Source of the DNA: Desulfobacteraceae bacterium
GTDB lineage: Bacteria > Desulfobacterota > Desulfobacteria > Desulfobacterales > JAABRJ01
Direction: 5' to 3'
DNA: 55,967 bases
NCBI GenBank assembly: GCA_022340425.1
Contig: JAJDNY010000054.1
Span: 1-55,967 of the forward strand
The notes beneath the pieces were generated by a model, which had not been told where the DNA came from, did not search any database, and worked only from the letters and a program-made list of their open reading frames with translations. Below, piece after piece: positions 12,381 to 35,765 of this stretch; the first letter of the stretch is position 1, and each line of letters opens with the position of its first letter. The position numbers were made by a program, and so were the translations under genes.

Positions 12381-13583
12381 TCAGGGCTCTTTGGCCAGAT
12401 GCCGGATTTGGTCCAGCCAGTCGTCGCCGCCGGACGGGGCGCCGTTGTCGGCGGCGGATATGTGTCGTTTGGGCAGCACCACCCGGAAGCGGGCCCCGGC
12501 CCCCAAACGGCTTTCCACCGTGATGCGGCCGCCAAGCTTTTCGACGATCCCGCGGGTGACGAAGAGCCCCAGGCCGGTGCCCTCGCCGGGGGGTTTGGTG
12601 CTGAAGAAAGGCTCGAAGATCTTGTCCAGGTTCTCCTTGGGGATGCCCTTGCCGGTGTCGGCGATCTCCAGGGCGACGCCCTCGCCGTGGGCCTGCAGAC
12701 GCACGTCGATGCGGCCCTCGTCGGCGCTGGCCTGGACGGCATTGGAGAGCAGGTTGATCAGCACCTGGCGCAGCTGGTAGGGGTCGCTCCAGATGGTTTC
12801 CGCCTCGGGGGCGATCTCGCGCTGGACGCTGACGTTGCGGTTGGCGATCTCGCGGTGGAGCAGTTCCAGGGTTTCCGCCACCAGGGAGGGCAGATGGACC
12901 TCCACCACCGCCGCCTCCTGCCGCTGGACCGAGCCCAGCAGCTGGTGGGTGATGCGCCGGGCGCGTTCAATGGCGTTTTCGATCTTGCCGATGGCTTTTT
13001 CGAGGTCCTCCCTGCGCGGAATGTCAGCCATCTGCGGGTTTTTGAGAATCAGCCGCATCCAGCCGGCCGATTCCTTGATGATCGCCAGGGGGTTGTTGAT
13101 CTCATGGGCCACCCCGGTGGCCAGGGTCCCCAGCGAGGCCAGGCGCTCGGTGGCGATCATCTGCTGTTCCATCCGTGCCCGGTAGGCGGCCTCGCGTTTT
13201 TTTTCGGCGGCCCGCAGGATCTTGTCGTGGGCCTGATGGATTTTGCTGACCAGCTGCTCCAGTTCGATCGGTTTGGTGAGATAGTCGAAGGCCCCCGACT
13301 TGATCCCGGCCACCCCGTCGGGGGTGGTGGCGTGCCCGGTCAGGAGAATCACCTCGGTTTCCGGGTATTTTTCCTTGATCCGCCCCAGGACCTCGATCCC
13401 GTTCATGCCGGGCATTTTCACGTCCAGCACGACCACATCCATGGGCTGCTCGGCCAGCAGCCGCAGGCACTCCTCGCCGGTGGCAGCCTCCGCCGGCGTT
13501 ATTCCGCGTTTGGTGAGCCGGCGCGCGATGGCGCGGCGGAAGTCGGCTTCGTCGTCAACCAGCAGCAGTCGGATGGGATCCAT
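12381..13583 (-). CDS. Response regulator-histidine kinase hybrid (REC-HisKA-HATPase)
   Basis: 400 residues without membrane segments. A receiver domain (residues 1-120; LVDDE, phosphoacceptor Asp54 in VLDVKMPG, TGHA, Lys in TKPIE) is followed by a coiled linker (KILRAAEKKREAAYRARMEQQ), a HisKA domain with His160 in VAHEINNPL, and an HATPase domain with N (LLSNAVQA), G1 (IADTGKGIP), F (FEPFFSTK) and G2 (GTGLGL) boxes. The order receiver-then-kinase suggests a phosphorelay intermediate whose kinase is controlled by phosphorylation of its own receiver. It is the last gene of a set with two stand-alone receivers and a Cache-type kinase upstream. Confidence 0.92.
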   Translation of the reverse strand: MDPIRLLLVDDEADFRRAIARRLTKRGITPAEAATGEECLRLLAEQPMDVVVLDVKMPGMNGIEVLGRIKEKYPETEVILLTGHATTPDGVAGIKSGAFDYLTKPIELEQLVSKIHQAHDKILRAAEKKREAAYRARMEQQMIATERLASLGTLATGVAHEINNPLAIIKESAGWMRLILKNPQMADIPRREDLEKAIGKIENAIERARRITHQLLGSVQRQEAAVVEVHLPSLVAETLELLHREIANRNVSVQREIAPEAETIWSDPYQLRQVLINLLSNAVQASADEGRIDVRLQAHGEGVALEIADTGKGIPKENLDKIFEPFFSTKPPGEGTGLGLFVTRGIVEKLGGRITVESRLGAGARFRVVLPKRHISAADNGAPSGGDDWLDQIRHLAKEP

Positions 13584-13640
13584 GGGTGCCTCGGGTGTTG
13601 GGGCGTGGCAGCGCCGGAATCGGGCCTGGCAGGCAAACCC

Positions 13641-14045
13641 TCACGCTCCCGCCGGTGGGGTGGGGCGGGCGGCCCAGGCCTTGGCAATTTTTTTCAGCAG
13701 ATCATCGAGCTCGCAGGGTTTGGTGAGGTAGTCGAATGCCCCCTCCTGCATGCCCTGCTGTGCGGCGGTTGCCGATCCGTGACCGGTCAGCATGATCACG
13801 GCCAGCTCGGGAGCCATCTTTTTGAAGACCCGCAGCACCTCGATCCCGTCCATGTCCTCCATCTTGAGGTCCAGCACGGCGACATCGAAATCGTTGCGGC
13901 GCAGCAGCTGGATCCCCTCGGCGCCCGAATAGGCCTTGGTGACCTTGACCTTGCGCCGCTGCAGGCGATTGGCGAGAACGTCGACGTAGCTTTTCTCGTC
14001 ATCGACGATCAGCAGCCGGATATTTTCGAGCTGAAACGATTGCAT
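13641..14045 (-). CDS. Stand-alone receiver domain protein
   Basis: 134 residues, essentially one CheY-like receiver: acidic pair in IVDDE, phosphoacceptor Asp59 in AVLDLKMEDMDG, MLTGHGS and LTKPCE with the conserved lysine. A short Pro/Ala tail follows. No output domain, so it probably passes phosphate to another protein or acts by binding. It lies 57 bases upstream of the REC-kinase hybrid and 17 bases after the next receiver gene. Confidence 0.9.
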   Translation of the reverse strand: MQSFQLENIRLLIVDDEKSYVDVLANRLQRRKVKVTKAYSGAEGIQLLRRNDFDVAVLDLKMEDMDGIEVLRVFKKMAPELAVIMLTGHGSATAAQQGMQEGAFDYLTKPCELDDLLKKIAKAWAARPTPPAGA

Positions 14046-14062
14046 GGTGCAGAAACCCCCGC

Positions 14063-14494
14063 CTACGTGCGGCGCGATGTAATCTCCTTGATCCGGGCCT
14101 CGATGATCTTCTCCTCGTGCTGGCGCTTTTTGGCGGCCGCCTGCTCCACCTTGCTCAGCAGCAGGTCGATGTCGCAGGGTTTCATCAGATAGTCGTAGGC
14201 GCCCAGCTTCATCCCCTCGATGGCGGTTTCCACCGTGGCATGTCCGGTGAGCATGATGACCTCCAGCAGGGGTGCCACCTTCTTGATCTCCCGCAGGGTC
14301 TCGATGCCGTCCATGCCGGGCATTTTGACGTCCAGAATGACCACCTCCAGATTGCCGAACTTTTTGACCTGCTCCAGGGCTTCCGGGCCGCTGGCGGCGG
14401 CTTCGATGTTGAGGTTGCGCTTGGTGAGACGCTTGGTCATCGTCTCCACGAAACCGGTTTCGTCATCGACCAACAACACATTCGCAAGTGCCAT
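14063..14494 (-). CDS. Stand-alone receiver domain protein
   Basis: 143 residues. Receiver with LLVDDE, Asp55 in VILDVKMPGMDG, MLTGHAT and LMKPCD, followed by a charged helical tail (VEQAAAKKRQHEEKIIEARIKEI) that could be a coiled-coil contact rather than a DNA-binding domain. The start at 14494 has AAAGGAGA 7 bases upstream. It follows the Cache-type histidine kinase gene by 48 bases and is very similar to the receiver encoded at 18423-18848, which has the same relation to a second kinase. Confidence 0.92.
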   Translation of the reverse strand: MALANVLLVDDETGFVETMTKRLTKRNLNIEAAASGPEALEQVKKFGNLEVVILDVKMPGMDGIETLREIKKVAPLLEVIMLTGHATVETAIEGMKLGAYDYLMKPCDIDLLLSKVEQAAAKKRQHEEKIIEARIKEITSRRT

Positions 14495-14542
14495 AGCATT
14501 ATCTCCTTTGGACTGCCGCACTGACGGTGCGCCTGCACCGGG

Positions 14543-16261
14543 TCATGCCGCGGGTTGGGCCGGGCCTTCGGACTGGGGCTGGACCGGCAGCTGGATGCGG
14601 AAGGTCGTACCCATGTCCACAACACTGTTGACGTCGATTTCACCGCCCATTTTCTTGATGATCCCGTAGCAGATCGAAAGCCCCAGACCAGTACCCTTGC
14701 CCACCGGTTTGGTGGTGAAAAACGGGTCGAAAATGCGGCCCAGGTTCGCCCGCGGGATGCCGGGTCCGGTGTCGGCGAATTCGACCATAATCTTGTCGTC
14801 GGCCTGGTGGGTGGAAATTTTGAGCGACCCGCCGGTCTGGTTCATGGCATCCAGGGCGTTGTTGATCAGGTTGAGAAACACCTGCTGCAGTTCGGTCTGG
14901 GAGACCTGCAGCGGGGGCAGCCCCTCGGCCAGCTGGGTTTCCATGGTGACCTTGCTGTAGCGCGCCCGCTGGGCTGAGAGCGACACCATTTCCTGGATCA
15001 GATCATTGATCGCCACATCCTCCACCCGGGAGTCGGTTTTGCGAGCGAAGCTCAGCAGCTTGTGGGTGATTTCCTTGCAGCGCTTGCCCTGGTTTTTGAT
15101 CTGCTGCAGGGCGCGCTGGAATTCGGCCTTGTTTTCGGTCTGGGCAAGGTCTTCGTCCTCCAGCAGATCCTCGATCCAGCCGGCTTCCTCCACCATGATG
15201 GCCACGGGGTTGTTGATCTCGTGGGCGATGCCCGCGGCCAACTCTCCCACCGAGGCCAGCTTGCCGGTCTCGATCACCTGCTGGTTCATCATCTCCTTTT
15301 CACGGTCGGCAACCGCGATGCGCGCCACCATGCGTCCGGTGAGAATGTGGGCCATGGCCACGATCGCGAGGGCGCCGGCGATGAAAATCAGGATGGCGAT
15401 GTTCAGGGTGCGACTGATGTCGGAAAAGGCGTCCTCGGTGCTCTGCTGAAAGACCAGCAGCCACTGGTTATCCTTGAGAAAAGCCGTTGCGAAGATGCTG
15501 GGGACCCCCTTGCGGTCTTCGCGTTCGACAATGTAGGCCGGGCGGGAGGCCCCGGCCCCCCTCTTCAGGAAGTTGGCGAAGTAGCCGTCCTTGGAGAGCG
15601 GGATTTCATACAGGGGCTTGGTCTGAAACTCCAGTTCGCGGTTGAGGATATAGGCGAATCCGGTCTTTCCGACCCGCAGATTTTCCACCAGGGTGTTGAA
15701 AGCTGCGAAATTGATGGTGGCCCGCAGCAGGCAGGCGCTGCCGCCGAAATCCTTGCGCACGGCCACGATGAAGTGCGGCGTGCCGCGCAGCCCCAGAAAG
15801 ACGTCGCTGATGAAGTAGGGGGCCGCAATGGCCTGGCGGAACCATTCGGCTTTGGAATAGTCCGCCTCTGTCAGCAGGTACGGACCGGCATAGGCCACCT
15901 GGCGCCCGTTTTCGTCGATCAGGCCGAGATCCTCGAAAACCCCCCCGTATTCCTGGCGCAAAATCATCAGCAAATCTTTGAGAAACGCCGAATCACTGAG
16001 CTGCTCGCAGTCGAAAACGTCCGCCACAAACCGGATGTCGCCGAGTTTTTCGGACAGGAAGGTGTCGATGCCCTGTTTGTGTTTGAGCACCAGCTCTTCG
16101 AGATGGGCATGGATTTTTTCACGGTAGGAGATTCGAAACTGGTCGAGAATCACCCCGATGGCCACGATCATCGGTGCGAAGGAAACCAGAACCACAATCA
16201 TCACCAGGCGGCGATGAAGATGCTTGTAATATGCGTTTGACAGGAGTCTTTGGTTGTCCAT
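14543..16261 (-). CDS. Membrane sensor histidine kinase with extracytoplasmic Cache-like domain
   Basis: About 572 residues. A transmembrane segment ([19 protein letters not shown]) near the N-terminus and another ([20 protein letters not shown], about residue 295) flank an extracytoplasmic sensor domain of about 250 residues with double-Cache features ([40 protein letters not shown]). The kinase core has His347 in IAHEINNPV, an N box (LINNALDA), [28 protein letters not shown]. The frame is open to 16399, but I prefer 16261, 16 residues before the first membrane helix. It is a clear paralogue of the kinase at 18956-20650. Confidence 0.92.
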
Positions 16262-16365
16262 GCCCGCTTTCTTCAGCTTGGCCGCAATGGGATCCTTTTC
16301 CCGCCCAGGGCCGCGGGACGCGCCGGTGGCGTTCGGTGGAATCGGCATCCCATTGAAGTCATAGG

Positions 16366-16395
16366 AATATAGGTCAATAATTGATCGAAAATCAA
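16366..16395 (-). promoter_or_regulatory. Putative sigma-70 promoter for the Cache-type kinase operon
   Basis: TTGATT (16395-16390), 18 bases and TATATT (16371-16366) on the minus strand, in a local AT-rich patch. It would give a leader of about 95 bases before the ATG at 16261. If the gene used the ATG at 16399, this promoter would be inside it, which is one reason for the downstream start. Confidence 0.55.
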
Positions 16396-16520
16396 GCAAA
16401 AACGGGACACCCGCAGGCCATGGGAGGGTGCGGGTTGAGTTCGCCGCGAGGGCGTTTGAACCCGTCGCCCCGGGGAGCCAAGGCCCACGCCGGGGGTGGG
16501 GGTGCCGGTAGGCTCGCGTG

Positions 16521-16564
16521 CCGCAGGGGCGTCCCCCCCAAGAGGAGGGGACGCCGCCCTGCGG
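16521..16564. terminator. Strong stem-loop after the PstS-like gene
   Basis: CCGCAGGG-GCGTCCCC pairs with GGGGACGC-cg-CCCTGCGG, about 16 bp with a 2-base bulge, starting 7 bases past the stop codon at 16571. There is no T-run, so it may be an mRNA 3'-end stabiliser or a Rho-dependent end. It separates the PstS-like gene from the downstream kinase promoter. Confidence 0.5.
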
Positions 16565-16570
16565 GGAGCT

Positions 16571-17383
16571 TTAGGGGGTGCGCGCGATGGGCAGCATGCC
16601 CTTTTGGCTGAAGAGCTCCTGGGCCTCGGGGGAAAAGGCGAAATCCACGAACGCCTTGACCGGGCCGCTGGGCTCGCCCTTGGTCACATAGGAGAACACC
16701 TGATATAAGGGGTAGGCGGGATCTCCGGGGGGCAGCCCGCCGATCTTGAGTGCCTTGACACCCTCGGTGGTGATGCTGGCGCCCCGGGAGATGAATGATA
16801 TGGCCCCGGGAAACTTTGCGACGATATCGATGACGTCGGTAGATTCGTAGGTCATTAGGTCGTAGACGATTTCCTTGTGTTTCATCACCTGGCGGCGAAA
16901 GTTCTGATTTGCGCCGGTGTCCTTGCCGGGAACAACCACCATGATGGGGGCATCGGCTCCGCCCAGGGCCCGCCAGGTGGTGATGCCCCCGCTGAAAACC
17001 TCCTCTAGCTGATCAATCGTGAGATCCGTCACCGCAGCGTCGGCATGAACAATCACGGCCAGCGGGTCCTTGCAGAATGGGATTTCCACGTAGCCATACT
17101 CGTTGTAGCGGTAATACAGTTGCCGGGTGGTGCTGGCGATGTCGGCGAAACCGTTCATCAGCCGGTTGACCGCCGATGAGGAGGAGGACACGAAGACCTC
17201 CACCGGGATGCCGGTTTTTTTCTGGAACATCTCCACGCCTTCCTTCCCGAAGGCCCGGTAAACCTGTGCGGCCTGGCTGTAGCGCAGGCTGTCCTGGGCC
17301 GAGGCCGCCGAATTCTGCCCCAGGCTGCCCCACAGAAGGATGGTGCCGAGGGTCACTACGAGTAGTAGCGCTTGTTTTTTCAT
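16571..17383 (-). CDS. PstS-like periplasmic substrate-binding protein
   Basis: 270 residues. A signal peptide with likely cleavage after ASA (residue 29) and a PstS-type binding fold: VSSSSSAVNRLMNGFADIASTTRQ matches the phosphate-loop region, and ITTWRALGG, VVPGKDTGANQNFRRQVM, FPGAISFISRG and YPLYQVFSYVTKG follow the family order. Members bind phosphate or similar oxyanions. There is no pstC, pstA, pstB or phoU nearby. Instead it lies between two histidine kinase clusters and has its own sigma-54 promoter, so a sensory rather than transport role is plausible, though inferred. RBS AGGAGG lies 9 bases upstream. Confidence 0.85.
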   Translation of the reverse strand: MKKQALLLVVTLGTILLWGSLGQNSAASAQDSLRYSQAAQVYRAFGKEGVEMFQKKTGIPVEVFVSSSSSAVNRLMNGFADIASTTRQLYYRYNEYGYVEIPFCKDPLAVIVHADAAVTDLTIDQLEEVFSGGITTWRALGGADAPIMVVVPGKDTGANQNFRRQVMKHKEIVYDLMTYESTDVIDIVAKFPGAISFISRGASITTEGVKALKIGGLPPGDPAYPLYQVFSYVTKGEPSGPVKAFVDFAFSPEAQELFSQKGMLPIARTP

Positions 17384-17465
17384 GCCGTGCCTCCTCTGGT
17401 GAACGATAAATGCCGCGAGTGCTTGTTTTCAATGGTTTTGGCGGGAACCTTTGGCGATCTGATTC

Positions 17466-17481
17466 TGCAACCCGTATGCCA
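17466..17481 (-). promoter_or_regulatory. Sigma-54 promoter of the PstS-like gene
   Basis: TGGCAT-acggg-TTGCA on the minus strand. The invariant GG and GC are exactly 10 bases apart, as required for the -24/-12 class. Transcription would start near 17455, about 70 bases before the ATG. A palindrome 103 bases further upstream is a candidate activator site. Confidence 0.82.
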
Positions 17482-17583
17482 TTTGAAGCGATTTATTTTT
17501 GGTTTAACTAGCTTTAAAAACGGGTAATTTTGATCCGAGCGGTTTGCCCCGGGTGTCTTGCCAGGGGGGCTTTGTCGAAATTT

Positions 17584-17598
17584 TTTACATGCTGTAAA
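17584..17598. promoter_or_regulatory. Palindromic enhancer site, copy 1
   Basis: TTTACA-tgc-TGTAAA, a perfect inverted repeat whose centre is about 111 bases upstream of the -24 GG of the PstS-like gene promoter. The same site, with shared flanks (TTTTTACAnnCTGTAAAG), occurs once more, at 21214-21228 upstream of the second sigma-54 promoter. Confidence 0.75.
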
Positions 17599-17722
17599 GG
17601 CGGTTTTTCACGGCCGGTCGGCCTCCGCAGCCCCTGGGTAGGCTTTCCTGTGGCGGGTGTCCACTTCGCGGACCCCAGTCGCATGCGCCGCAATTGAAAA
17701 CACCCCGCCCGGCGGTTGCGAC

Positions 17723-18250
17723 TCAGCCTGTGGCCGGCAGCAGCGTTTGGAGCGACCAGAAGAGCAGAATGATCAGGGCGATGGAGATGGCCACGACCGT
17801 CAGGGCCTGACGGCGGGGCAGACCCAGCCCGCGGGTCATGCCGGTTCCGATCAGCCACCACTTCCAGGCTTCGGTGAGCAGGACCAGCCCGGGAACCCAG
17901 GAGGCCAGGAGGGTGATCCCGGCTGCCAGGGCGTAAATGGTGAAAACCCGCCGGAAGGCGATCTCCCGGCCCCGCATCAGGGTGATGATCAGCCAGCCGG
18001 CGCCGGCGGCGATAAGGGTCATGCCCACGGCGTTGGCGAAATAGATCAGCCCAAGGTACACCGGCTGTGGGCCCGGCTGAGCGATCACACAGGCCCCGGC
18101 AAAAAGGAGGCTGGAAACCACCAGCATGCCCAGGGGACGGCTCCAGCCGGCTTCCGGCGGCAGCTCGGCCAACACGGCGCGCGGGTTGACCGACAGGCGG
18201 GTCAGGGTCGTCAGGTAGAAGCGCAGGGAAAAGGCGGTGCCGGCGTTCAT
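17723..18250 (-). CDS. Yip1-family integral membrane protein
   Basis: 175 residues with about five hydrophobic segments (SRPLGMLVVSSLLFAGACVI, YLGLIYFANAVGMTLIAAGAGWLIITLM, FTIYALAAGITLLASWVPGLVLL, ALTVVAISIALIILLFWSLQ). The N-terminal amphipathic FYLTTLTRLSVNPRAVLAEL and the overall topology match bacterial Yip1-domain proteins, whose function is unknown. It is the last gene of the unit that begins with the receiver at 21051, 3 bases after the 53-residue membrane protein gene, so it is probably part of the same signalling system. Confidence 0.78.
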   Translation of the reverse strand: MNAGTAFSLRFYLTTLTRLSVNPRAVLAELPPEAGWSRPLGMLVVSSLLFAGACVIAQPGPQPVYLGLIYFANAVGMTLIAAGAGWLIITLMRGREIAFRRVFTIYALAAGITLLASWVPGLVLLTEAWKWWLIGTGMTRGLGLPRRQALTVVAISIALIILLFWSLQTLLPATG

Positions 18251-18253
18251 GGC

Positions 18254-18415
18254 CTAAACCACACCCAGACGGTAGAGAACGCCCACTACCAGCATGACCA
18301 GGGTCAAGATGAAAAACAGTTTGCGCTCGGTTTGGCGGCTGAAATAGATCCGGCCGTCGCGGCGCATGAAAGCGCGCTCAGGCTTCGGTCTGGCCTCGAT
18401 TTTTGACGTTGTCAT
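18254..18415 (-). CDS. Small single-pass membrane protein
   Basis: 53 residues: a basic cytoplasmic-looking N-terminus (KPERAFMRRDGRIYFSRQTERK) and one C-terminal membrane segment (LFFILTLVMLVVGVLYRLGVV). The start at 18415 is 7 bases after the stop of the receiver gene and the stop is 3 bases before the Yip1-type gene, which supports it being real and co-translated. Unknown function; perhaps a small partner of the Yip1-type protein or of a kinase. Confidence 0.65.
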   Translation of the reverse strand: MTTSKIEARPKPERAFMRRDGRIYFSRQTERKLFFILTLVMLVVGVLYRLGVV

Positions 18416-18422
18416 GGCGTTT

Positions 18423-18848
18423 TTACTTTTCCCGGGGCGTCTGGTGGTTTTGGATGGCGCGGATCTTCTCCTCCAGGTGCCGCCGTCTTTCAAACGCCTC
18501 GGCGACCTTCTCCAGCAGTTCGTCGATCTCCGAGGGCTTGGTCAGGTAGTCGGTGGCGCCCGATTTCATCCCCTCCACAGCCGATTCGAAGGTGCCGTGG
18601 CCGGTGAGCATGATGACCTCCACCAAGGGGTGGCGCCGTTTAATCTCCTTGAGCGTTGCAATCCCGTCCATCCCGGGCATTTTGACGTCCACAATGGCCA
18701 CGTCAACTGGGTTGCGGTCTATCGTCGCCAGCGCCTCGGCCCCGCTGCCGGCCGTCAGCACGTCATAGCCTTTTCTGCGCAACACTTTCTGGGTGGTTGA
18801 AAGAAAACGCTCCTCGTCGTCCACCAGCAGAATCTTCGGTTTTCGCAT
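18423..18848 (-). CDS. Stand-alone receiver domain protein
   Basis: 141 residues. Receiver with LLVDDE, phosphoacceptor Asp54 in AIVDVKMPGMDG, MLTGHGT, LTKPSE, and a charged helical tail (FERRRHLEEKIRAIQNHQ). No output domain. The start at 18848 has GGGAGAAA upstream; the longer frame has no RBS. It sits 107 bases after the second Cache-type kinase gene, mirroring the 14063-14494 receiver and its kinase. Confidence 0.92.
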   Translation of the reverse strand: MRKPKILLVDDEERFLSTTQKVLRRKGYDVLTAGSGAEALATIDRNPVDVAIVDVKMPGMDGIATLKEIKRRHPLVEVIMLTGHGTFESAVEGMKSGATDYLTKPSEIDELLEKVAEAFERRRHLEEKIRAIQNHQTPREK

Positions 18849-18955
18849 CTTAGTTTCTCCCGGCCGGTTTGGTTGACGGCCCCGGCAACAGGGGGTGCCC
18901 TCTTTCCGTGGGCGGCATGGCGCCGTGCCCCGGCCCAAAAGCGCCGCGCGCCCCT

Positions 18956-20650
18956 TTATGCCGCCGTGGTGGGCAGATCGATGACAAAGGTGGCCCCTTC
19001 GCCGGGTGCGCTCTGAACCGTCATGGCGCCCCCTAGATTCTGGATGATGCCGTAGCAGACCGAGAGTCCCAGCCCGGTGCCTTTGCCCACCGGTTTGGTG
19101 GTGAAAAAGGGCGAGAAAATTTTATCCAGGTTCCCCGCATCGATCCCGCAGCCGTTGTCGTTGACTGTTATCCGGACGCGGCCGTTGCCGGTCGGCGCCG
19201 AGCTGACGGTCAATTCACCGCCCATTGTTCCGTGGCGCGCAATGATGGCGTCCATGGCGTTGTTGAAGAGGTTCAACAGCACCTGCTGGAGCTGGGAGGG
19301 GTCGCCGTGGATGAAAACCGGCCCGTCCTGGATTTCGCGATGGATGGCGATGCCTTCGACGCTGGCCTTTTTGGCCACCATCTCGATCACTTCGGGGATG
19401 AAAGTCTGGATGTCGAAATCCTGGACCGCATCCTCGCTTTTGCGGCCGAAGCGCAAAATCGCGTGGGTGATCTTCGAGCAGCGTGCGATCTGGAGCGAAA
19501 TCTGGCTGACCGAATCTTCGAGATCCTTCAGGTCTTCGGATTCCGGCAGCTGGCCGGAGGCCTTGAGGTCCGCGATGATGGTTTCGATCAGGGCCTGCTC
19601 GCTTTTCATGACCTGTAGCGGGTTGTTGATCTCATGAGCGAAGCCGGCCGCCATTTCCCCCAGCTCGGACAGGCGATGGGCGCGGATGAGCTGTTCGTTG
19701 AGCTGGTTTTTTTCGCGGTCGGTCTGCTGGATGCGGGCCACGATGCGATCGGTCAGGTAAAAGGCCACCGCGATGATGACCGCACCGCCCAGCAGCGAGA
19801 TCAAGAGGATCAGATGGGTGGCGGTGCTGAGGGCCTTGAAGGCGTCGGCCTTTTCCTGGCGCACCACCAGCAGCCAGTTTTTGTTGGTCAGGCGGGTGGT
19901 GGCATACAGGTAGGTGTCCCCCTGTCTGTCGCTTTCGATGAATATTCTGACCCTCTGATCCTCCACCGGATACCAGCCGAAATCGGGGTCCTGCGCCATC
20001 AGGCGGCCGCCCGAGCGGCGCTCGGTTTGAAACGTCCCCTGGGCGCTGAGCAGGAATGCCTCGCCGGTTTTGCCGATTCGCACCCGCCCCGCCAGTTCGT
20101 TGAACATCTGGGTGTCGATGGTGGCCCGGATGACCCACCGCGAGGCGCCGTCCTGTTTGGCCAGGGCGATCACGAAGTGGGGTACTTTGCGGTAGCCCAG
20201 GAAGATGTCGCTGATGTAAACCCCTTTTTCCATCACGGCCTTGAACCAGGGTTCGTCGCGGTAGCTTTTCCATTTGAGTTCAAACGGCCCTTGGTAGGCG
20301 ACGTGCATGCCGCTCTGGTCGAAAACCCCCAGATCGACGAAGGCGCTTGAGCTCTGCTGGAGCAAGGCCAGGGCCCGCTTGAGGGTTTCGGGGCGGCCGA
20401 GGCTCTCGTAGCTGTGGGTGTTGAGAACAAACTCGAGATCGCTGCGGCGCTCGGCCAGGAAGGAATCGATCATGTGGCGGTGGTCTTCGACGATGCGCGT
20501 GATGCTGGCGATGGTGGAGTTTTCCAGGGCCGAGGTGAAATGGTAGTGGCCGATCCAAAGGGCCAGAATAAACGGTACGACCGGCAGCAAGATCATGCTC
20601 GCCAGGAGGATTCGCTTCATTGCCGCGTAATGCTGGTCCTTCTCCTTCAT
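18956..20650 (-). CDS. Membrane sensor histidine kinase with extracytoplasmic Cache-like domain
   Basis: 564 residues, paralogous along its length to the kinase at 14543. Membrane segments at about residues 13-34 and 278-300 flank the sensor domain (VDLGVFDQSGMHVAYQGPF, GVYISDIFLGYRKVPHFVIA, GKTGEAFLLS). Kinase core: His339 in [46 protein letters not shown]. The ligand is unknown; Cache domains usually bind small metabolites. Its ATG overlaps the end of the upstream receiver gene by 4 bases, so both are expressed from the sigma-54 promoter at 21094. Confidence 0.93.
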   Translation of the reverse strand: MKEKDQHYAAMKRILLASMILLPVVPFILALWIGHYHFTSALENSTIASITRIVEDHRHMIDSFLAERRSDLEFVLNTHSYESLGRPETLKRALALLQQSSSAFVDLGVFDQSGMHVAYQGPFELKWKSYRDEPWFKAVMEKGVYISDIFLGYRKVPHFVIALAKQDGASRWVIRATIDTQMFNELAGRVRIGKTGEAFLLSAQGTFQTERRSGGRLMAQDPDFGWYPVEDQRVRIFIESDRQGDTYLYATTRLTNKNWLLVVRQEKADAFKALSTATHLILLISLLGGAVIIAVAFYLTDRIVARIQQTDREKNQLNEQLIRAHRLSELGEMAAGFAHEINNPLQVMKSEQALIETIIADLKASGQLPESEDLKDLEDSVSQISLQIARCSKITHAILRFGRKSEDAVQDFDIQTFIPEVIEMVAKKASVEGIAIHREIQDGPVFIHGDPSQLQQVLLNLFNNAMDAIIARHGTMGGELTVSSAPTGNGRVRITVNDNGCGIDAGNLDKIFSPFFTTKPVGKGTGLGLSVCYGIIQNLGGAMTVQSAPGEGATFVIDLPTTAA

Positions 20651-21051
20651 GCCTCCTCACTTTCCTCCGATGGACTCGGGCCGTGATCGGCGAGAACCTC
20701 CTCCACCACCTGCTTGAGCTGTTCGATGCTGCCGCCCCCTTTTTCCACGAAGGCCGCCGCGGTCACCACGGCCGGACAATCGTCGTAATCCCAGGTGAAG
20801 CTGTGGACCACAACGGGCAGCGACGGCATGGCCTGGTGCAGTTTTTCGAGGATGCCGAGTTCGGGTTCGTCGGGCAGATTGAGATCCAGAATCAGGAGAT
20901 CCGGCGGCGGGTAGTGGTTGACCCAGTTCAACACCTCCCGCCCGTTTTTGGCGAGGCGCACGCGGTAGCCGATCGCCGCCAGCTCCCGTTTCAAAAATTC
21001 CCGGACGTGGCGGTTGCGGTCTGCGATTAAAATCGTGATGCCTTTGTCCAC
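20647..21051 (-). CDS. Divergent stand-alone receiver domain protein
   Basis: 134 residues with receiver fold: Asp56 in LLILDLNLPD is the likely phosphoacceptor and FVEKGGG carries the conserved lysine. The acidic pair is reduced to IADRN, and the Thr/Ser switch position reads VVHSFTWDYDD, so phosphorylation may be atypical. An acidic tail (PSPSEESEEA) ends the protein. First gene of the sigma-54 unit and only 32 bases downstream of the predicted start site. Confidence 0.85.
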   Translation of the reverse strand: MDKGITILIADRNRHVREFLKRELAAIGYRVRLAKNGREVLNWVNHYPPPDLLILDLNLPDEPELGILEKLHQAMPSLPVVVHSFTWDYDDCPAVVTAAAFVEKGGGSIEQLKQVVEEVLADHGPSPSEESEEA

Positions 21052-21093
21052 CGGACCCCTTGTCGATAGGCGATTGCAGATGATGCCGTCTTG

Positions 21094-21109
21094 AGCAACG
21101 CCTGTGCCA
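21094..21109 (-). promoter_or_regulatory. Sigma-54 promoter of the receiver-kinase-Yip1 unit
   Basis: TTGGCAC-aggcg-TTGCT on the minus strand, almost a perfect -24/-12 consensus. Start site near 21083, about 32 bases before the ATG at 21051. Activation would need a bacterial enhancer-binding protein. Confidence 0.9.
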
Positions 21110-21213
21110 AACCGCTGGTTGGCGAGTGGGGATGCAACCTTCTGAAAACGAAGCTTTTTTTTGGGGAAAGCAGCCGGTGGGGCGGTTCTCTGCAGGTCAT
21201 GCTGTCGGGGATT

Positions 21214-21228
21214 TTTACACCCTGTAAA
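21214..21228. promoter_or_regulatory. Palindromic enhancer site, copy 2
   Basis: TTTACA-ccc-TGTAAA, 105 bases upstream of the sigma-54 promoter at 21094-21109. The centre-to-GG distance differs by only about 2 bases from copy 1 at 17584-17598. The shared flanks and spacing suggest that one activator controls both units. The rest of the 21052-21445 gap shows no further gene. Confidence 0.75.
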
Positions 21229-21796: not shown

Positions 21797-21955
21797 GAGG
21801 CGTCGCACCTTAAAGCTTTCCCCCCGGCCGCCGGCGCTTCAAGCCGGCGCAACGGCCCGCCGATGGCGCGCCCCATTTTGAGGTTGACACACCCCCGCGC
21901 TTGTTGGCACTTAGGACCAGATCCGAATCATAGACGATTGCAAAGGAGGTCCAGT

Positions 21956-22654
21956 ATGCTGGCACGGCGAACTTTTTTGAAGGTCTCAGCCGGGATGGGC
22001 GCCCTGGCGATGTTGCACCTGGCCGGTCTGGGCGGGCGTGGACAGGGCCGGGCCGGGGAAACGGCCATCGACCTGCCCCCCCTGCCGTATCCGGAAAACG
22101 CCCTTGAACCCCATATTTCAGCCCGGACCATCGGGTTTCACTACGGCAAGCACCACCGCGGGTACGTTGACAAGACCCGGGGCTTTGTGGCCGGGACCGA
22201 ATGGGCCCAAATGGATCTCGTCGCCCTGGTTCAGAAAACCGCCGGAAAACCCGAGCAGACCAGTATCTTCAACAATGCCGCGCAGGTCTTCAACCACAAT
22301 TTCTACTGGCTGAGCATGAAGCCCGGCGGCGGGGGCGTCCCCGACGGCAGCCTGGCGGCCGCACTCAACGCCGCCTTCGGCAGCTATGAGGGGTTTGTCG
22401 CCGAATTCAAGGATGCCGCGGCCTCGCAGTTCGGCAGCGGCTGGGCCTGGCTGGTGCGGGATGGCGCCGACCTGAAAATTGTCAAGACCGGCAATGCCGA
22501 TACCCCCCTCACGGCCGGGCTGACGCCTCTTCTGACCATCGACGTCTGGGAGCACGCCTATTACCTCGACTACCAGAACCGTCGGGGGGATTATATCCAA
22601 GCGTTTCTGGACCACCTGGTCAATTGGGAGTTTGCCGCCCGCAACCTGGGGTAG
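21956..22654 (+). CDS. Tat-exported Fe/Mn superoxide dismutase
   Basis: 232 residues. A twin-arginine signal ([10 protein letters not shown]) and hydrophobic stretch precede the mature enzyme, which starts near [18 protein letters not shown]. Predicted metal ligands are His62 (FHYGKHH), His114 (FNHNFYW), Asp196 and His200 (DVWEHAYY), the standard 2His-Asp-His arrangement. Iron is more likely than manganese from the general sequence style, but this is not decisive. A near-perfect AAAGGAGGT sits 5 bases before the ATG. A TTGACA at 21884 lacks a good -10. Export suggests protection of the periplasm of an anaerobe from superoxide. Confidence 0.92.
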
Positions 22655-27283: not shown

Positions 27284-30200
27284 TTACGACTGCAGCTTGA
27301 GCCAGACCCGCAGCAGCTCGCTGACCCCCCAGGCCTGGGCATCGCAGCCGCGCTGCTGGTGGGGGGCGTCGCCGTCCACGATTTCGGGCATCTGGAGGCA
27401 GCAGCCGCGGTTGAGCAGGCGCGTGCCGCTGGCCAGCCAGGCCAGGGCGGTGGCATGCCCGGCTTTGCCGTATGTCAGGGCCCAGGCCTCGCAGAAGCTC
27501 GGGAAGACCCAGGTCCAGGCCGTGCCGTTGTGGTAGGCGGGTTTGCGCCGGGTGTCTTCATCGCCCAGATAGCGTCCCTGGTAGGGGTTGTGGGGGTCGT
27601 TGAGCAGCTGGTCCTGGTGCAGGATCGGGTGTGGGCGGGAAACCGGCTGGTCCGCCAGGCTGCGAATGGCGCCCGGCACCAGCAGCGTTTCGCAGGCCGT
27701 CAGCACCCGGCGGCAGGCCTCGGGTGCAGACAGCGCACCCAGGGTCAGGGCGAAAAGCTGGTTGGGCCGCAGGGCGTCGTCGATTTCGGCCCGCTGCGGC
27801 GGCGTGTCGGGCGTGGCGTGCAGGCAGTCGGCCAGATAGCCCGCCTGCTCCTGCCAAAAGTGCTGCTGCAGCCCCCGGCGGACGCGCGCCGCTGTTTTTT
27901 GCCACGGCCCGCCGCTCTCCTGTGGGTCGATGCGCTTCAAAACGCTCAGGGCGGCGAACCACAGAGCCTGGATTTCAACGGGATAGCCGGCCCGCAGGGT
28001 CCCGGCCGGAAAATTGGTATCCATCCAGGTAAAGTGGCCGGGGCTGTAAAGCAGCCCGGAGGCGGGGTCCATCCGCACGCCGTTGGGTGTGCCGGCCATC
28101 AGGGCGGCGCCCAGGTCCAGCAGCACCTCACCCAGTCTGCGGCCGCCGCAGTCGCTTTCCAGAAACCGGCGGCTGCGCTGCCTGCGGATCAGGTCGCCGC
28201 AGGCCACCACGAACCACAGCGGTGCGTCCGAGGTGTCGCGGTTGCCGGCATTTTTTCCGTGAATCATGTTGGGCAGGGTGCCGTTTTCGGTGAACTGGCC
28301 GAACTGTTGCAGGACGGCCGCCGCCGCGGCGGTTTTACCGGCCGTGATCAGTCCGCGGACGACGATCAGCGCATCCCGGCCCCAGTCCAGAAACCAGGGG
28401 TAGCCGGCAATCACGGAACGAAGGGCCCCCCGCTTGACGACGTACTGGTCCAGGGCGCCGGCTAAAGCCTCAGCCAGCGGCCAGCGCAGCGGCAGCTCCT
28501 TGGGCGGCGGCAAAACCGTCGTCTGGGCTGCCGGGTCGGAGGCCCTGCGGGCCACGGCGGTCATTTCGACCTGGTCGCCGCCGGCCAATAAACAGGAGAA
28601 GTAGCCGGGGCTGAAGAGGTCCGAGTCCGGGTCCAGGCCGCGGGTGGCCTCCAGGGGGCGGTGCACCATATAGGTCCATTCCGGTGCGGCCGTAAAGCGC
28701 CCCCCGGGCAGCCGGACCGTCAGACCATGGTCCCCGGCGGGTGCGAAGTGAAATCCGTCGGCGGCGGGCTGCACGGCGGCCGCGAAGGTCTTCTCGGGGC
28801 CGGTGTAGGCCTTGGTGGTGTCGTGAAAGCTGCGGTCTTCGACATCCGGTCGCAGGATCAGTTCCACCGGCCGCCGGTCATCCAGGCGCGAGGCTCGGCC
28901 CTCGGCCGGCAGCCGCTGGAAGCGGAGCTGGACGCGGTTCTGCAGGGGGGCCATCGTCAGGGTCAGCGCCAGAAAAACGTGCTGGCCCTGTCCGGTGGGG
29001 ACGTGGAAATGCCATGTGCCCCGGGAGGGGGCGTCCAACCGGAACTGGTGCAGGCAGTCGAAGCTCAGGGCTTGGGAGTAGCCCTGGTAGACCAGCCAGC
29101 CTCGGCAGCGGGTGAAGAGCACCCGCCGGTCCTCGGGCACTTCGGGATCGAGGTTGGCGGCCAGGATGGCGTCATAGCGGCTTTCCAGCCGGCCCCACAT
29201 CACCGGCAGGTGGGTCATCGCGCCGCGGCCGTTGGCGGCCAGGAAGAGGGGCTTGCGACGGCGGATTTCGGTGTGGCTGAAGACCCGCATGGCGGCCGCG
29301 TCGCGGGCTGCCGCCAGCTGCAGCAGCGGGCCCTGGGCGTGGGTGCTGCGGCCGGGGCTGAAAACCGTCAGCTTGAGCTTCTGGCGCTGGTGGCGCCGCG
29401 GGGTTGGCAGCGGGGTAAAGAGGGCGAAGTGGGTGCCGTCCTGCCGGGCGAGGCTTTTTTCGGCGGCCAGCGTCCGACCTTCCTGGATGATGCGGGCATG
29501 AAAGGGGAGCGGCGCGATGACTAGGAGCAAATGGCCGGGGGGCAGCATGACGGTGCGGCGGCAATCCGTCGGCCATTGCCAGCGGGTGATCCGGGGTGGC
29601 GCGTTGTCCGGGCCGGCCTCGCGGCAGAAGGCGGCCGGGTCGGCGGCCAGACGGGCCGCGCCGGCATCGGGGTCGAAGCCGCCGAGGTCGGCCGTTTGGC
29701 TTAAAATCTGGCAGACCTCCAGGGCCTTGGCCCGCAGGCACTGGTGCGCGATGCGCGCCGGCAGCCTCAGGGGATCCGCGGCGCCCTCCAGGAGCGCCAG
29801 GTCCGAAGGCTCCGGGCTCAGGCACATCACCTGGCCGGGCGCCAGGGGCAGCAGCCGGCGGGTGCCGGCCTCCCGGGGCACCACTCGCTGGCCAGTGAGC
29901 AGGTCGACCCACGCTTCGGCCGCGATCTCCACCTGGCGCGGGTTCCAGCCGGCGGTGACCGGCTGCCGGTCGTCGAGGTTGGCCGCCACCAGCAGGCTGC
30001 GGCCGCTGGGTCGGTGGCGGCGGCGCATGACGATGAACTCGCCCTCGCCCTGCTGCATCATCTTGAGTTCGACCTCGGCGTGAAATGCCGGGTGGGTTTT
30101 CAGCAGGTCGCTGAGGCGGCGGATCCAGGCCACCTGGTTGGGTTCGGCGCCCCAGTTGAGGCTTGGCGCCTCGTGAACGATGATCTTCTCGGTGGCGTAC

Positions 30201-32859: not shown

Positions 32860-34290
32860 TTATTTTACCGTGGTTTCGATTTTAAGGCCGTATTTGTCGA
32901 TCCCGGAATGCAGGGTCGGCCGGGAGACTCCCAGCAGCCTGGCGGCCCGCGAGCGGTTGCCGCCGGTGAGGTTCAGGGCCTCGCTGATCAGGATGCTGGC
33001 AAAACGGTCGATGCAGGCGTCAAACAGGTTCTTCTGGCTTTTGGCGGTCAGGGCTTCCACCGCCCACCGGCGAAGGGCCTGATCGGTGGTGCCGGCGCTG
33101 TCGGATGGGTCGCTCGGCTGCCCCCCGCCGCGCAGCGCCGGGCCGATCTCCTCGGGGCCGATGGGCGCGCCGCGGTTGAAGATCAGCAGCTTCTGGATGG
33201 TGTTGCTGAGTTCCCGGATGTTGCCCGGCCAGTTGTAGGTTTTCAGACTCTCCGTAGCTTCGGGGGTGATGCCGGGGTTTTCGACCCCCAGGCTGTCGCC
33301 GTGGCGCGCCAGAAAATATTCCGTCAACAGCGGGATGTCGTCGACGCGCTCCCGCAGGGGCGGCAGCCAGATTGTGACCACCTTGAGTCGATAGTAGAGA
33401 TCCTCCCGGAAGCGGCCCTCCACCAGGGCGGCCTCCAGGTCGCGGTTGGTGGCGGCGATGATGCGCACATCCACCGCGATGGTCTCCCCGCCCCCGAGCC
33501 GTTCTATACTCTTTTCCTGGAGCAGCCGCAAGATCTTTGCCTGGATGCTGAAGGGCATGTCGCCGATTTCGTCCAGGAACACGGTGCCCCGGTGGGCCTG
33601 CTCGATTTTGCCCACGCGGCGGTGGGCGGCACCCGTGAAGGCCCCCTTTTCGTAGCCGAAGAGCTCGCTTTCCAGCAGGTTTTCGGGTATCGCGACGCAG
33701 TTGATGACCAGAAACGGGTTGGCCGCGCGCAGGCTGTGCTGGTAAATGGCCCGAGCGACCAGCTCCTTGCCGGTGCCGGACTCCCCGCGGATGAGCACGG
33801 TGGCATCCGAGGAGGCCACCCGGCCGATGGCCTTGTAGACGTCCTGCATCGGTTTGCTGCGGCCGATGATGGCCTCCCGCGCGGTTTGCTGAAGGCCCCC
33901 GTCGACCACCACCGGTGAGCGCATGAAGTGTCCGGCCTCGATGGCTTTCTGAATCACCGCCAGCATGTCGGGGATGTCGAAGGGTTTGAGAATGTAGTCG
34001 TAGGCCCCCATCTTGGTGGCCTCGATGGCGGTCTCGGTGGTGCCGAAGGCCGTCATGATGATCACCGGCAGCTTGGGCTCGATGCGCTGGATCTGCAGAA
34101 AGGTCTGCAGCCCGTTCATGCCCGGCAGGCGCATGTCAAGGATCACCAGGTCGGGGCTGCGCTGGTCGACCAGCTTGACTCCGGCCTCCCCCGAGGGGGC
34201 CGTTTGAACGGCGTAATCCTCCTCGGTGAGTAGTTTCTCGAAACTGCGCCGCAGCTGGTCGTCGTCGTCGATGATCAGGATCGTGTCCAT
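32860..34290 (-). CDS. NtrC-family sigma-54-dependent response regulator
   Basis: 476 residues. Receiver (residues 1-120, Asp52 in VILDMRLPGMNG), central AAA+ domain with Walker A GESGTGKE, the sigma-54-contacting GAFTGA loop, Walker B FLDEIGDMP and R-finger region NRDLEAALVEGRFREDLYYRL, and a C-terminal Fis-type helix-turn-helix (ALNLTGGNRSRAARLLGVSRPTLHSGIDKYGL). It activates sigma-54 promoters from distant palindromic sites. It lies 11 bases after a histidine kinase gene, its likely partner. It is the only enhancer-binding protein in the window and so a candidate for the palindromes at 17584 and 21214. Confidence 0.95.
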   Translation of the reverse strand: MDTILIIDDDDQLRRSFEKLLTEEDYAVQTAPSGEAGVKLVDQRSPDLVILDMRLPGMNGLQTFLQIQRIEPKLPVIIMTAFGTTETAIEATKMGAYDYILKPFDIPDMLAVIQKAIEAGHFMRSPVVVDGGLQQTAREAIIGRSKPMQDVYKAIGRVASSDATVLIRGESGTGKELVARAIYQHSLRAANPFLVINCVAIPENLLESELFGYEKGAFTGAAHRRVGKIEQAHRGTVFLDEIGDMPFSIQAKILRLLQEKSIERLGGGETIAVDVRIIAATNRDLEAALVEGRFREDLYYRLKVVTIWLPPLRERVDDIPLLTEYFLARHGDSLGVENPGITPEATESLKTYNWPGNIRELSNTIQKLLIFNRGAPIGPEEIGPALRGGGQPSDPSDSAGTTDQALRRWAVEALTAKSQKNLFDACIDRFASILISEALNLTGGNRSRAARLLGVSRPTLHSGIDKYGLKIETTVK

Positions 34291-34301: not shown

Positions 34302-35765
34302 TTATCCGCTCTCGGCGGGCAGGCTGATGGTGAAGGTCGTGCCCCGGCCTTCCCGGGAATCCAGGCTGAGCCAGCCGCCGTGCTCCGCGATGATGCGGGC
34401 GGCGATGCTCAGACCCAGCCCGGTACCCTCCTCCTTGGTGGTGAAGAAGGGCTGGAAGATTCGCTCCTTGAGGGTCTCGGGGACCCCGGGGCCCTGGTCT
34501 TGCACGCGGATGACGGCCTGCTGGCGGGCATCGATGTGCTGCAGCTCCTCGGTGATGCGGATGGCGCCCCCGGCGCTCATGGCCTCGCAGGCGTTGACCA
34601 CCAGGTTGACCAGGACCTCCTTGAGCTGTTCGGGGTCGGCCTGGATCTCGGGCAGCGGCCGCAGGCGCTCGACGCTGATGGTGACGTCGTTTGAGGTCAG
34701 GCGGTGGCGCAGCAACTGGACCACCAGGTCCACCACCTCCGACGGGCTGACCTGCTGCATCTTGAGCTTGGGCGGGCGCGAAAACTCCAGGAAATTCTGG
34801 ACGATGGTGTCGATCTGGTCGATTTCCTCGGAGATCACCTTGAAATCGTCGCGCTGGGTGTCGCTCAGCGCCAGGGTGCGGTCCAGGGAGAAAAGCCGCA
34901 TCTTGACCGAGGTCAGGGGGTTGCGGATGCTGTGGGCCATGCCGGCCGCCAGCTTGCCGACCATGACCATCTTCTCGGTCTGCAGGAGGTGCTCACGGCT
35001 TTTTTCAAGTTCGCTCTGGGTGTGGTCCACGTTTTCGATCAGGCCCCGCACCCGGAGGCTGAGCGCCTTGATCTCGTTGCCGGTGGGAGGCGGGCGGCTC
35101 TCGCGGCCGGCTTCGCGCATCAGCTCGCGCACCGGCCCCAAAATGTTTTTGGCCAGGATAAAGGCCAGCAACAGGACCATCAGCAGGGCCAGCCCCATGG
35201 AGGAGAGGGCGGTCAAGCGCAGGTTCTGGGCTTCGGCGTGGCTGGCCGCGCGGGTGCCTCTGATCTGCTGGGTGTGCAGGGCCTTGTAGCCCTCACAGAG
35301 GGAGAGGAGCCTGAAAAAATGTCCCCGCACCTCTTTGTGCAGGCTGGTGCCGGCTTCGCGCCGGCCCTCTCGATACAAATCGATCACCCGGTCCTTGGTG
35401 TCGATGTAGCGGCCGTATTCGGCCTCGATGGCCGAGATGGCTGCCAGCTGTTCGGGGTTTTCGGCGGTGGCACGGGTCTCCTTGAGGGTTTGCAGAAATA
35501 TCTGCCGGTATTCGCCCAGCTGGCGAAGCCAATCGGGGTCCCCGTCCAGGAAGTAGTAGGAGACAAAGCCCTTCTGGTTGATCAGGGCGGTTTCCAGGGC
35601 CTCGGCGGTCTGGTAGGCGGCGATGTTTTTGGTGACGATGGTCGTCAGCAGGGCTTCCATGCGGTAGGTGTACCAGACCATGACATAGCCGCCGGCAGCG
35701 GTGATGGCCGCGATCAAGGCAAGGATGAGGTAAATTCTGGCGCGCAGGCTGAAGCGGCTTTGCAT
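34302..35765 (-). CDS. Membrane sensor histidine kinase
   Basis: 487 residues. N-terminal membrane segment (IYLILALIAAITAAGGYVMVW), an extracytoplasmic helical sensor of about 155 residues resembling four-helix-bundle MCP-type domains, a second membrane segment (ALSSMGLALLMVLLLAFILA), a HAMP-like linker, HisKA with His278 in MAHSIRNPLTSV and a HATPase domain (LVVNACEAM, VQDQGPGVP, FQPFFTTKEEGTGLGL). The H-box His-Ser-Ile-Arg-Asn-Pro differs from the His-Glu-Ile-Asn-Asn-Pro of the other kinases here and resembles NtrB/AtoS-like partners of NtrC proteins, fitting the adjacent regulator. Confidence 0.93.
   Translation of the reverse strand: MQSRFSLRARIYLILALIAAITAAGGYVMVWYTYRMEALLTTIVTKNIAAYQTAEALETALINQKGFVSYYFLDGDPDWLRQLGEYRQIFLQTLKETRATAENPEQLAAISAIEAEYGRYIDTKDRVIDLYREGRREAGTSLHKEVRGHFFRLLSLCEGYKALHTQQIRGTRAASHAEAQNLRLTALSSMGLALLMVLLLAFILAKNILGPVRELMREAGRESRPPPTGNEIKALSLRVRGLIENVDHTQSELEKSREHLLQTEKMVMVGKLAAGMAHSIRNPLTSVKMRLFSLDRTLALSDTQRDDFKVISEEIDQIDTIVQNFLEFSRPPKLKMQQVSPSEVVDLVVQLLRHRLTSNDVTISVERLRPLPEIQADPEQLKEVLVNLVVNACEAMSAGGAIRITEELQHIDARQQAVIRVQDQGPGVPETLKERIFQPFFTTKEEGTGLGLSIAARIIAEHGGWLSLDSREGRGTTFTISLPAESG

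Follow-up and report, generated by a model that had tools for sequence, protein, structure and literature searches.

What two Cache-type sensor kinases, a set of receivers, a PstS-like binding protein and a Yip1-type membrane protein might serve when no transporter is encoded beside them is the question raised by a block of minus-strand genes on contig JAJDNY010000054.1 of a Desulfobacteraceae bacterium (assembly GCA_022340425.1). The whole stretch of DNA that was analysed, hereafter the window, is this contig (C54) at its full length of 55,967 nucleotides and belongs to a 3.97-Mb assembly of 209 contigs that is 97.7% complete. The host is probably a sulfate reducer since its dsrA gene scores well above the cut-off (631.7 against 392.85 bits, a statement on gene content only). 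Based on a comparison with related genomes, the block likely represents the signalling and accessory genes of a sulfate-uptake cluster of Desulfobacterota, of the kind built around DASS (sodium:sulfate symporter-type) transporters, after the loss of its transporter genes.

An open reading frame listing, translation and Pfam identified ten genes at positions 12381–21051, all with open reading frames. They are given here from the upstream end, with the names of the two modules in which they recur in relatives:

20647..21051, minus strand: REC1, stand-alone receiver of 134 amino acids with a GTG start (PF00072, E 1.6e-12)
18956..20650, minus strand: HK1, the module A sensor histidine kinase with a dCache domain (Pfam dCache_1, HisKA, HATPase_c)
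18423..18848, minus strand: REC2, stand-alone receiver (PF00072, E 6.9e-32)
18254..18415, minus strand: SMALL, 53 amino acids with one hydrophobic stretch
17723..18250, minus strand: YIP, Yip1-domain membrane protein of 175 amino acids (PF04893, 33.8 bits, gathering cut-off 28.6)
16571..17383, minus strand: PSTS, PstS-like binding protein (PF12849, E 4.5e-31)
14543..about 16261, minus strand: HK2, the module B sensor histidine kinase with a dCache domain (Pfam)
14063..14494, minus strand: REC3, stand-alone receiver (Pfam)
13641..14045, minus strand: REC4, stand-alone receiver (Pfam)
12381..13583, minus strand: RECHK, hybrid of a receiver and a histidine kinase (Pfam)

The start of REC2 was set at an internal ATG by similarity (the mechanical reading frame extends to 18938) and that of HK2 was put at about 16261 (mechanical frame to 16399). 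The block probably consists of two operons, A (REC1 to YIP) and B (PSTS to RECHK), because 339 bp and a separate sigma-54 site divide YIP from PSTS. The gene content listed in the first-pass annotation, which was made from the letters alone (kinases, receivers, a REC-kinase hybrid, and the PstS-like, Yip1-type and 53-residue membrane proteins), was upheld by translation and Pfam. The same applies to its statements that no receiver inside the block carries an output domain and that the block itself lacks a permease, and its view of a signalling island with several kinases and receivers, a binding protein and a membrane pair is supported. Its count of nine genes has to be corrected to ten, which is also the sum of its own list, and its end point at 21109 takes in a stretch (21052–21109) that is promoter and holds no gene.

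SMALL gave no match in Pfam. Two YIP proteins of relatives were compared with PF04893, one scoring above the cut-off (53.8 bits) and one below it (24.5 bits), and the AlphaFold model of YIP (pLDDT 93.3) is composed of helices only and matched nothing solved in the PDB at E ≤ 0.001. Receivers usually carry an acidic pair (VDD); in the translation of REC1 the first of these residues is apparently absent (IAD), and REC1 may be an atypical receiver.

Relatives of the block were searched in 96 genomes, the relatives belonging to the same order as the host, where gene labels represent the best BLAST or HMM match to a small query set rather than a full annotation; the loci are related and a few overlap (e.g., L162 and L253), so the counts are not independent. 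Module A has the order REC1-HK1-REC2-(REC-CBS, DASS617)-SMALL-YIP in relatives, and the two genes in parentheses are missing in the window. A YIP match was found in 32 out of 96 genomes, and in all 20 YIP loci that were fetched the gene adjoins one for a protein of about 617 residues (DASS617), with a SMALL homologue labelled in 19 of them. Two DASS617 proteins were tested for family membership, a cluster member from locus L049 and a copy on contig C137 of the window genome, and both are PF00939/PF03600 transporters. The 300-residue neighbour of DASS617 (REC-CBS, one example tested) consists of a receiver and two CBS domains. At E ≤ 1e-100, DASS617 is present in 33 out of 96 genomes; 29 genomes hold both YIP and DASS617, three YIP alone and four DASS617 alone (Fisher p 5.5e-17, not corrected for the kinship of the genomes). 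Of the 29 with both, 27 have YIP 64–537 bp downstream of DASS617 in the same orientation; the exceptions are the window genome and G079, where the YIP match is weak (E 4.6e-4). Among the named loci, which were found by DASS617 and comprise the best 80 of 154 matches, SMALL follows DASS617 within 500 bp in 69 out of 79 loci with enough sequence and YIP within 1.2 kb in 66 out of 73, and an HK1-labelled kinase precedes it within 4.5 kb in 53 out of 58. The position of YIP next to DASS617 in 27 of 29 genomes goes beyond chance.

The remaining genes form module B, for which the order in relatives is PSTS-HK2-REC3-REC4-(DASS531)-RECHK, with DASS531 missing in the window. Leaving aside the window's own gene, PSTS was found above 170 bits at 18 places in 16 out of 96 genomes, and it is followed by HK2 in five of the 17 fetched PSTS loci (L118–L134), namely L118, L119, L121, L122, and L126; REC1 sits between the two in four of these five, and L119 and L126 run on to DASS531 and RECHK. 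DASS531 was found in 30 out of 96 genomes, and an HK2-labelled kinase and a receiver lie directly upstream of it in 16 out of 20 fetched loci. Both modules occur one after the other in L171 (module B, an activator pair, and HK1-REC2-DASS617-YIP), and L220 contains PSTS, a kinase-activator pair, REC1, HK1, REC2, DASS617, SMALL, YIP, REC-CBS, HK2, REC3, REC4, and DASS531 in a single row.

In the window, neither the interval from REC2 to SMALL nor that from REC4 to RECHK contains a DASS transporter gene, and both are short gaps:

18416..18422, minus strand: 7-bp gap at the site of DASS617 and often REC-CBS in relatives, deleted here (relatives' YIP loci; scar in a congener)
13584..13640, minus strand: 57-bp gap at the site of DASS531 in relatives, absent here with no scar seen (relatives' gene order)

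The congener G001 has 289 bp between REC2 and SMALL. Directly after the REC2 stop codon, in the REC2 frame, lies a piece of REC-CBS, followed past another stop codon by a piece of the carboxy end of DASS617, and the REC-CBS and DASS617 scores each exceed those of 300 out of 300 control stretches of the same length. This test was based on tail and fragment alignments, with 60 out of 73 REC-CBS proteins used (ETGHR anchor) and 12 random queries for the controls; in the initial scar search one DASS617 query matched among the matches listed (E 0.047). A search of the three longer intergenic stretches of the window for remnants of DASS617 or REC-CBS gave scores at control level only. No DASS531 was found at E ≤ 1e-100 in the window genome or in G001, in which the stretch from REC4 to RECHK aligns to the window at about 86% with no DASS531 between. 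DASS617 was likewise not found at this threshold in G001, a genome that is only 84% complete. The idea of a system that natively lacks a transporter, as put forward in the first-pass annotation, is contradicted by relatives in which the same genes flank DASS in every fetched YIP locus and by the deletion scar of the congener.

The CBS-domain gene missing from the block is present as a copy on C137 and as a fragment in G001. The window genome encodes one close DASS617, next to the REC-CBS gene on C137; it shares 84% identity with a second, stand-alone copy in G011 and 75% with the G011 cluster copy. A relocation of the transporter to C137 was considered and rejected, as G011 holds both copies and the alignment of the scar tail with the C137 tail scores 23, which is control level. 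The C137 gene is better read as an old paralogue because G011 keeps a stand-alone and a cluster copy and the scar tail differs from the C137 tail.

HK1 and HK2 are 38% identical to each other and up to 59% and 63% identical, respectively, to different groups of kinases in other genomes. In a tree of 55 kinases, HK1 falls within a set of 21 rows, 18 of them linked to DASS617 (support 100/98), and HK2 within a set of 23 rows that comprises kinases linked to DASS531 (15), PSTS (5), and DASS553 (2) and HK2 itself (support 99/99); the labels denote the nearest transporter and are not clean, and no group forms a single clade. The first-pass annotation had suggested an internal duplication of the kinase-receiver pairs, which was rejected since the tree puts HK1 and HK2 in different groups belonging to two different modules. 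Judging from their sequences, the two kinases are old paralogues.

Each operon is preceded by a sigma-54 site and a candidate upstream activating site, and an activator of the matching type is encoded in the window on the same strand as the block:

21214..21228, minus strand: TTTACAGGGTGTAAA, candidate upstream activating site 1 (exact match to the extended motif, which includes GACA)
21094..21110, minus strand: TTGGCACAGGCGTTGCT, -24/-12 (sigma-54) site heading operon A (no site in the window scores higher, 23.5 of 23.5; same bases in G001)
17584..17598, minus strand: candidate upstream activating site 2, TTTACAGCATGTAAA (same palindrome, extended motif with GACA)
17466..17482, minus strand: ATGGCATACGGGTTGCA, sigma-54 site heading operon B (score 21.5, ranked second among minus-strand sites of the window)
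32860..34290, minus strand: NtrC-type sigma-54 activator with REC, GAFTGA-bearing AAA+ and Fis HTH domains, put forward as the island's output (clusters of relatives have close homologues nearby)
34302..35765, minus strand: sensor kinase of the CHASE3/4HB type (in relatives, close homologues lie near PSTS, DASS531, and DASS617)

One plus-strand site of the sigma-54 type also scores 21.5 and lies inside the gene at 27284–31564. The palindrome TTTACANNNTGTAAA (TTTACA-N3-TGTAAA) occurs at just two places in the 3.97-Mb genome, the two activating sites listed above (about 0.014 expected from base composition; mean of 0.00 in 100 shuffles of the window), 103 bp upstream of the sigma-54 site in operon A and 101 bp upstream of it in operon B. 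In 117 loci (1.85 Mb) a total of 63 exact palindromes were found, 54 of them followed by a sigma-54 site, at a distance of 95–109 bp in 43 cases, and ten hand-picked control palindromes gave one match in total. Module genes are preceded by 43 of the 63 palindromes (HK1 16, PSTS 8, REC1 7, REC2 6, DASS553 4, HK2 2), a further 11 lie before other or unlabelled genes and nine have no sigma-54 site; in 51 non-identical units the motif runs on into A-rich bases and GACA. Sigma-54 sites with a score of at least 21 precede HK1 (34/68), PSTS (11/18), REC1 (6/12), DASS553 (7/14), HK2 (4/27), and the kinase of the activator (5/24). The counts for internal genes are 1/81 for DASS617, 1/74 for REC-CBS, 0/26 for DASS531, 0/22 for RECHK, and 0/24 for the activator, and 16/712 for control reading frames, against which HK1, PSTS, and REC1 are enriched and which are mechanical (at least 220 amino acids) and in many cases not real genes, the internal module genes being the fairer control. 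Among 33 sigma-54 units upstream of HK1, 13 have an exact palindrome 85–125 bp upstream and 10 have one with one mismatch. Close homologues of the kinase and activator were found in four out of 17 PSTS loci (L118, L120, L121, and L126) and seven out of 20 DASS531 loci (L165, L167, L169, L171, L172, L173, and L174). The claim of a block without DNA-binding output is misleading, as the block does not look exempt from transcriptional control: it has two sigma-54 sites with a common upstream palindrome, and the window also encodes a sigma-54 activator resembling those near the clusters of relatives; what stands of the first-pass interpretation is the signalling island. A literature search that left most subscription papers outside its reach returned no report of the palindrome in this setting and no paper linking Yip1 to such clusters, and neither TTTACA nor TGTAAA occurs in the main texts of two Desulfovibrio vulgaris surveys.

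The ratio of nonsynonymous to synonymous substitution rates (dN/dS) was calculated between the window and G001 (NG86). The values are 0.20 for HK1, 0.18 for RECHK, 0.16 for REC4 (126 residues), 0.34–0.36 for REC1, 0.31 for REC2, 0.28 for SMALL, and 0.46 for YIP (first 41 residues only), with 0.13–0.24 for the neighbouring trp genes; YN00 gave lower values than NG86 for genes other than REC1, SMALL, and the YIP piece. The retained genes open to this comparison are therefore under purifying selection, which is weaker in the smaller ones. The comparison excludes PSTS, HK2, and REC3 since both G001 contigs stop short of them, and nothing nearly identical to the three genes turned up when the DNA of G001 was searched.

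Clusters that combine DASS transporters with two-component systems and CBS proteins have been described in 26 sulfate-reducing species, with Cache kinases proposed to sense sulfate and regulators called WalR-type (PMC11887813). The 30.5-kb DASS cluster of Desulfosarcina variabilis 3be13 shares its Cache kinases, two-component genes, and linkage of DASS and CBS with the relatives of the block (PMC11887813), and in Desulfosarcina widdelii (L196) such parts occur together with SMALL and YIP. By description, and not by sequence, the loci of the relatives are of the same kind as this published cluster. The window differs in that both cluster transporters and REC-CBS are missing, and the main text of the paper names neither Yip1 nor PstS, its cluster section being silent on sigma-54 and the palindrome (PMC11887813). 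The first-pass annotation held that its proposal would fall if the block belonged to a known characterised operon, which applies in part: the class of cluster is published (PMC11887813). The block is set apart from the published cluster as a variant because it has neither the transporter nor the CBS protein in cis. The expression of DASS genes shifts with sulfate in Desulfobacterium autotrophicum (PMC5840216). A comparable mix of parts is found in the nitrate-resistance cluster of Desulfovibrio (DVU0251-DVU0245 / Dde_0597-0605), where a periplasmic binding protein, a histidine kinase, and a receiver share one poorly annotated locus; it differs in its PtxB-like COG3221 binding protein and a PEP-utilising enzyme, in a comparison by description and not by homology (PMC4001038).

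We infer the ligand, the flow of phosphate from the kinases to the activator, the pairing of activator and palindrome, and the role of SMALL and YIP as follows. The Cache kinases HK1 and HK2 would sense an external oxyanion, most likely sulfate and perhaps with the PstS-like protein, and phosphorylate the stand-alone receivers. The signal would reach the NtrC-type activator (32860–34290) directly or via RECHK, and the activator would bind TTTACA-N3-TGTAAA and start both operons from their sigma-54 promoters. SMALL and YIP would be accessory proteins of DASS617 that now serve the C137 paralogue in trans. A stricter form of this proposal, in which SMALL and YIP are dedicated DASS617 subunits and a sigma-54 regulon of few operons (TTTACA-N3-TGTAAA-N7-GACA) controls the C137 DASS617 in trans, is conceivable yet doubtful. 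About 50 bp ahead of the start of the C137 REC-CBS gene, the extended palindrome recurs with one mismatch (L116:11607-11632), and a site with a score of 20.5 is found upstream of this copy but without the GC. Control of the paralogue by the palindrome system is uncertain because a GG/GC sigma-54 site is missing at the expected distance on C137 and the G011 copy has no palindrome within two mismatches.

Several observations weigh against reading the block as the remainder of a sulfate-uptake cluster under this control. The substrate of the missing transporters is judged by family and by the published expression of relatives only, and the assembly is in 209 contigs and 97.7% complete. In 12 out of 17 fetched loci PSTS is followed by no high-scoring HK2-like kinase, and the solved structures nearest to it belong to phosphate-binding proteins, in part putative ones. 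Of the HK1 sigma-54 units, 10 out of 33 have no palindrome within one mismatch 85–125 bp upstream. Across the 80 named loci the palindrome is found in seven out of 14 with a close activator homologue (at least 550 bits) and in 27 out of 66 without one, which is no association. No GG/GC sigma-54 site lies at the usual distance from the C137 palindrome copy, and the stand-alone DASS617 copy of G011 has no such palindrome within two mismatches. Finally, REC1, REC2, and SMALL (0.28–0.36) and the YIP fragment (0.46, 41 residues) exceed the trp genes in dN/dS. This weaker constraint, the three genes gone from the window, and the pieces of two of them in the G001 scar would suit a decaying remnant, in which signalling genes left over from the transporter loss are without function and in the process of being lost. 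Such decay is unlikely, however, as all ten frames are open, HK1, RECHK, and REC4 (0.16–0.20) lie near the trp genes, and both units of activating site and sigma-54 site are close to consensus. Still harder to credit is a block rebuilt as a purely sensory system with the YIP/SMALL membrane pair as its target, which comes near the idea of the first-pass annotation: two species of the genus retain SMALL with no transporter next to it, and YIP too as far as its sequence goes (41 residues in G001), but SMALL-YIP is otherwise tied to DASS617, and a DASS617 is still encoded on C137 of this genome.

An offshoot of the Pho system, in which the PstS-like protein delivers phosphate to HK2, is improbable as well, even though PSTS has the PstS fold (best PDB match E 1.1e-22), phosphate-binding proteins as its best solved relatives, and in 12 of the 17 fetched loci no high-scoring HK2-like kinase following it. 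In the PhoR/PhoB-PstSCAB system a PstS-fold binding protein lies near kinases and receivers; the block differs in having no permease, no PhoB-type output domain, and Cache kinases. PstC, PstA, and PstB were found neither among the ten block genes nor among the downstream trp genes (PstCAB was not searched in the loci of relatives), PSTS scores 108 bits against TIGR02136, below the cut-off of 206.6, and two of the five loci in which it precedes the HK2 module also hold DASS531. A more serious competitor, if still a tentative one, is another sigma-54 activator as reader of the palindrome, for example a PrsR-type PEP-CTERM regulator. The PrsK/PrsR regulon combines an NtrC-type activator, a kinase, and a TTTACA-containing site upstream of -24/-12 promoters, with PEP-CTERM motif 1 ending in TTTACA (PMC1569441), and the palindrome and the activator homologue are not associated within loci. 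On the other hand, the spacing in the PEP-CTERM system averages 62.8 bp, compared with about 105 bp here, and its targets are different (PMC1569441). The activator at 32860–34290 misses the PrsR cut-off (TIGR02915, 430.8 against 502.6 bits) and has the close homologues near PSTS and DASS531 given above, and a PrsR-type regulator is the less likely reader of the palindrome.

The surroundings of the block consist of the trp operon downstream and, in upstream order, a plus-strand superoxide dismutase-like gene, genes of the glycogen synthase/phosphorylase type (assigned by translation only), genes for a glycogen-debranching-type protein and a LuxR-type response regulator, and then the NtrC-type activator with its kinase. 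The superoxide dismutase-like gene (21863–22654, plus strand, by translation only) lies between the block and the glycogen genes and has a Tat-like leader. Another DASS transporter (46036–47505, minus strand, PF00939, 489 amino acids) is 24–28% identical to the missing ones. On contig C116 of G000 (L115) a SulP transporter lies by a Cache-kinase-like fragment and a receiver-containing reading frame, which resembles the second published type of sulfate-uptake cluster, and contig C53 of G000 (L117) carries a further DASS-receiver pair, in which a 469-residue transporter is followed by a stand-alone receiver. Rfam and tRNA scans of the window gave no match. One structured element was noted inside operon B and is perhaps an mRNA processing or attenuation element:

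16500..16590, minus strand: stable hairpin region directly 3' of the PSTS stop codon (minimum free energy -50.8 kcal/mol, z -3.9)

The means by which sulfate reducers perceive sulfate and regulate its uptake remain an open question. The published model names Cache kinases, and its DASS cluster section gives no sigma-54 element (PMC11887813); the unit of palindrome and sigma-54 site, found before both operons and in many relatives, provides a testable cis-element together with a candidate activator. The recurrent SMALL-YIP pair beside DASS617 points to possible accessory proteins of the transporter. The window represents a natural transporter deletion that helps to separate sensing from transport, and if the proposed control of the C137 paralogue in trans were true, sulfate sensing and sulfate transport would be encoded apart in this genus.

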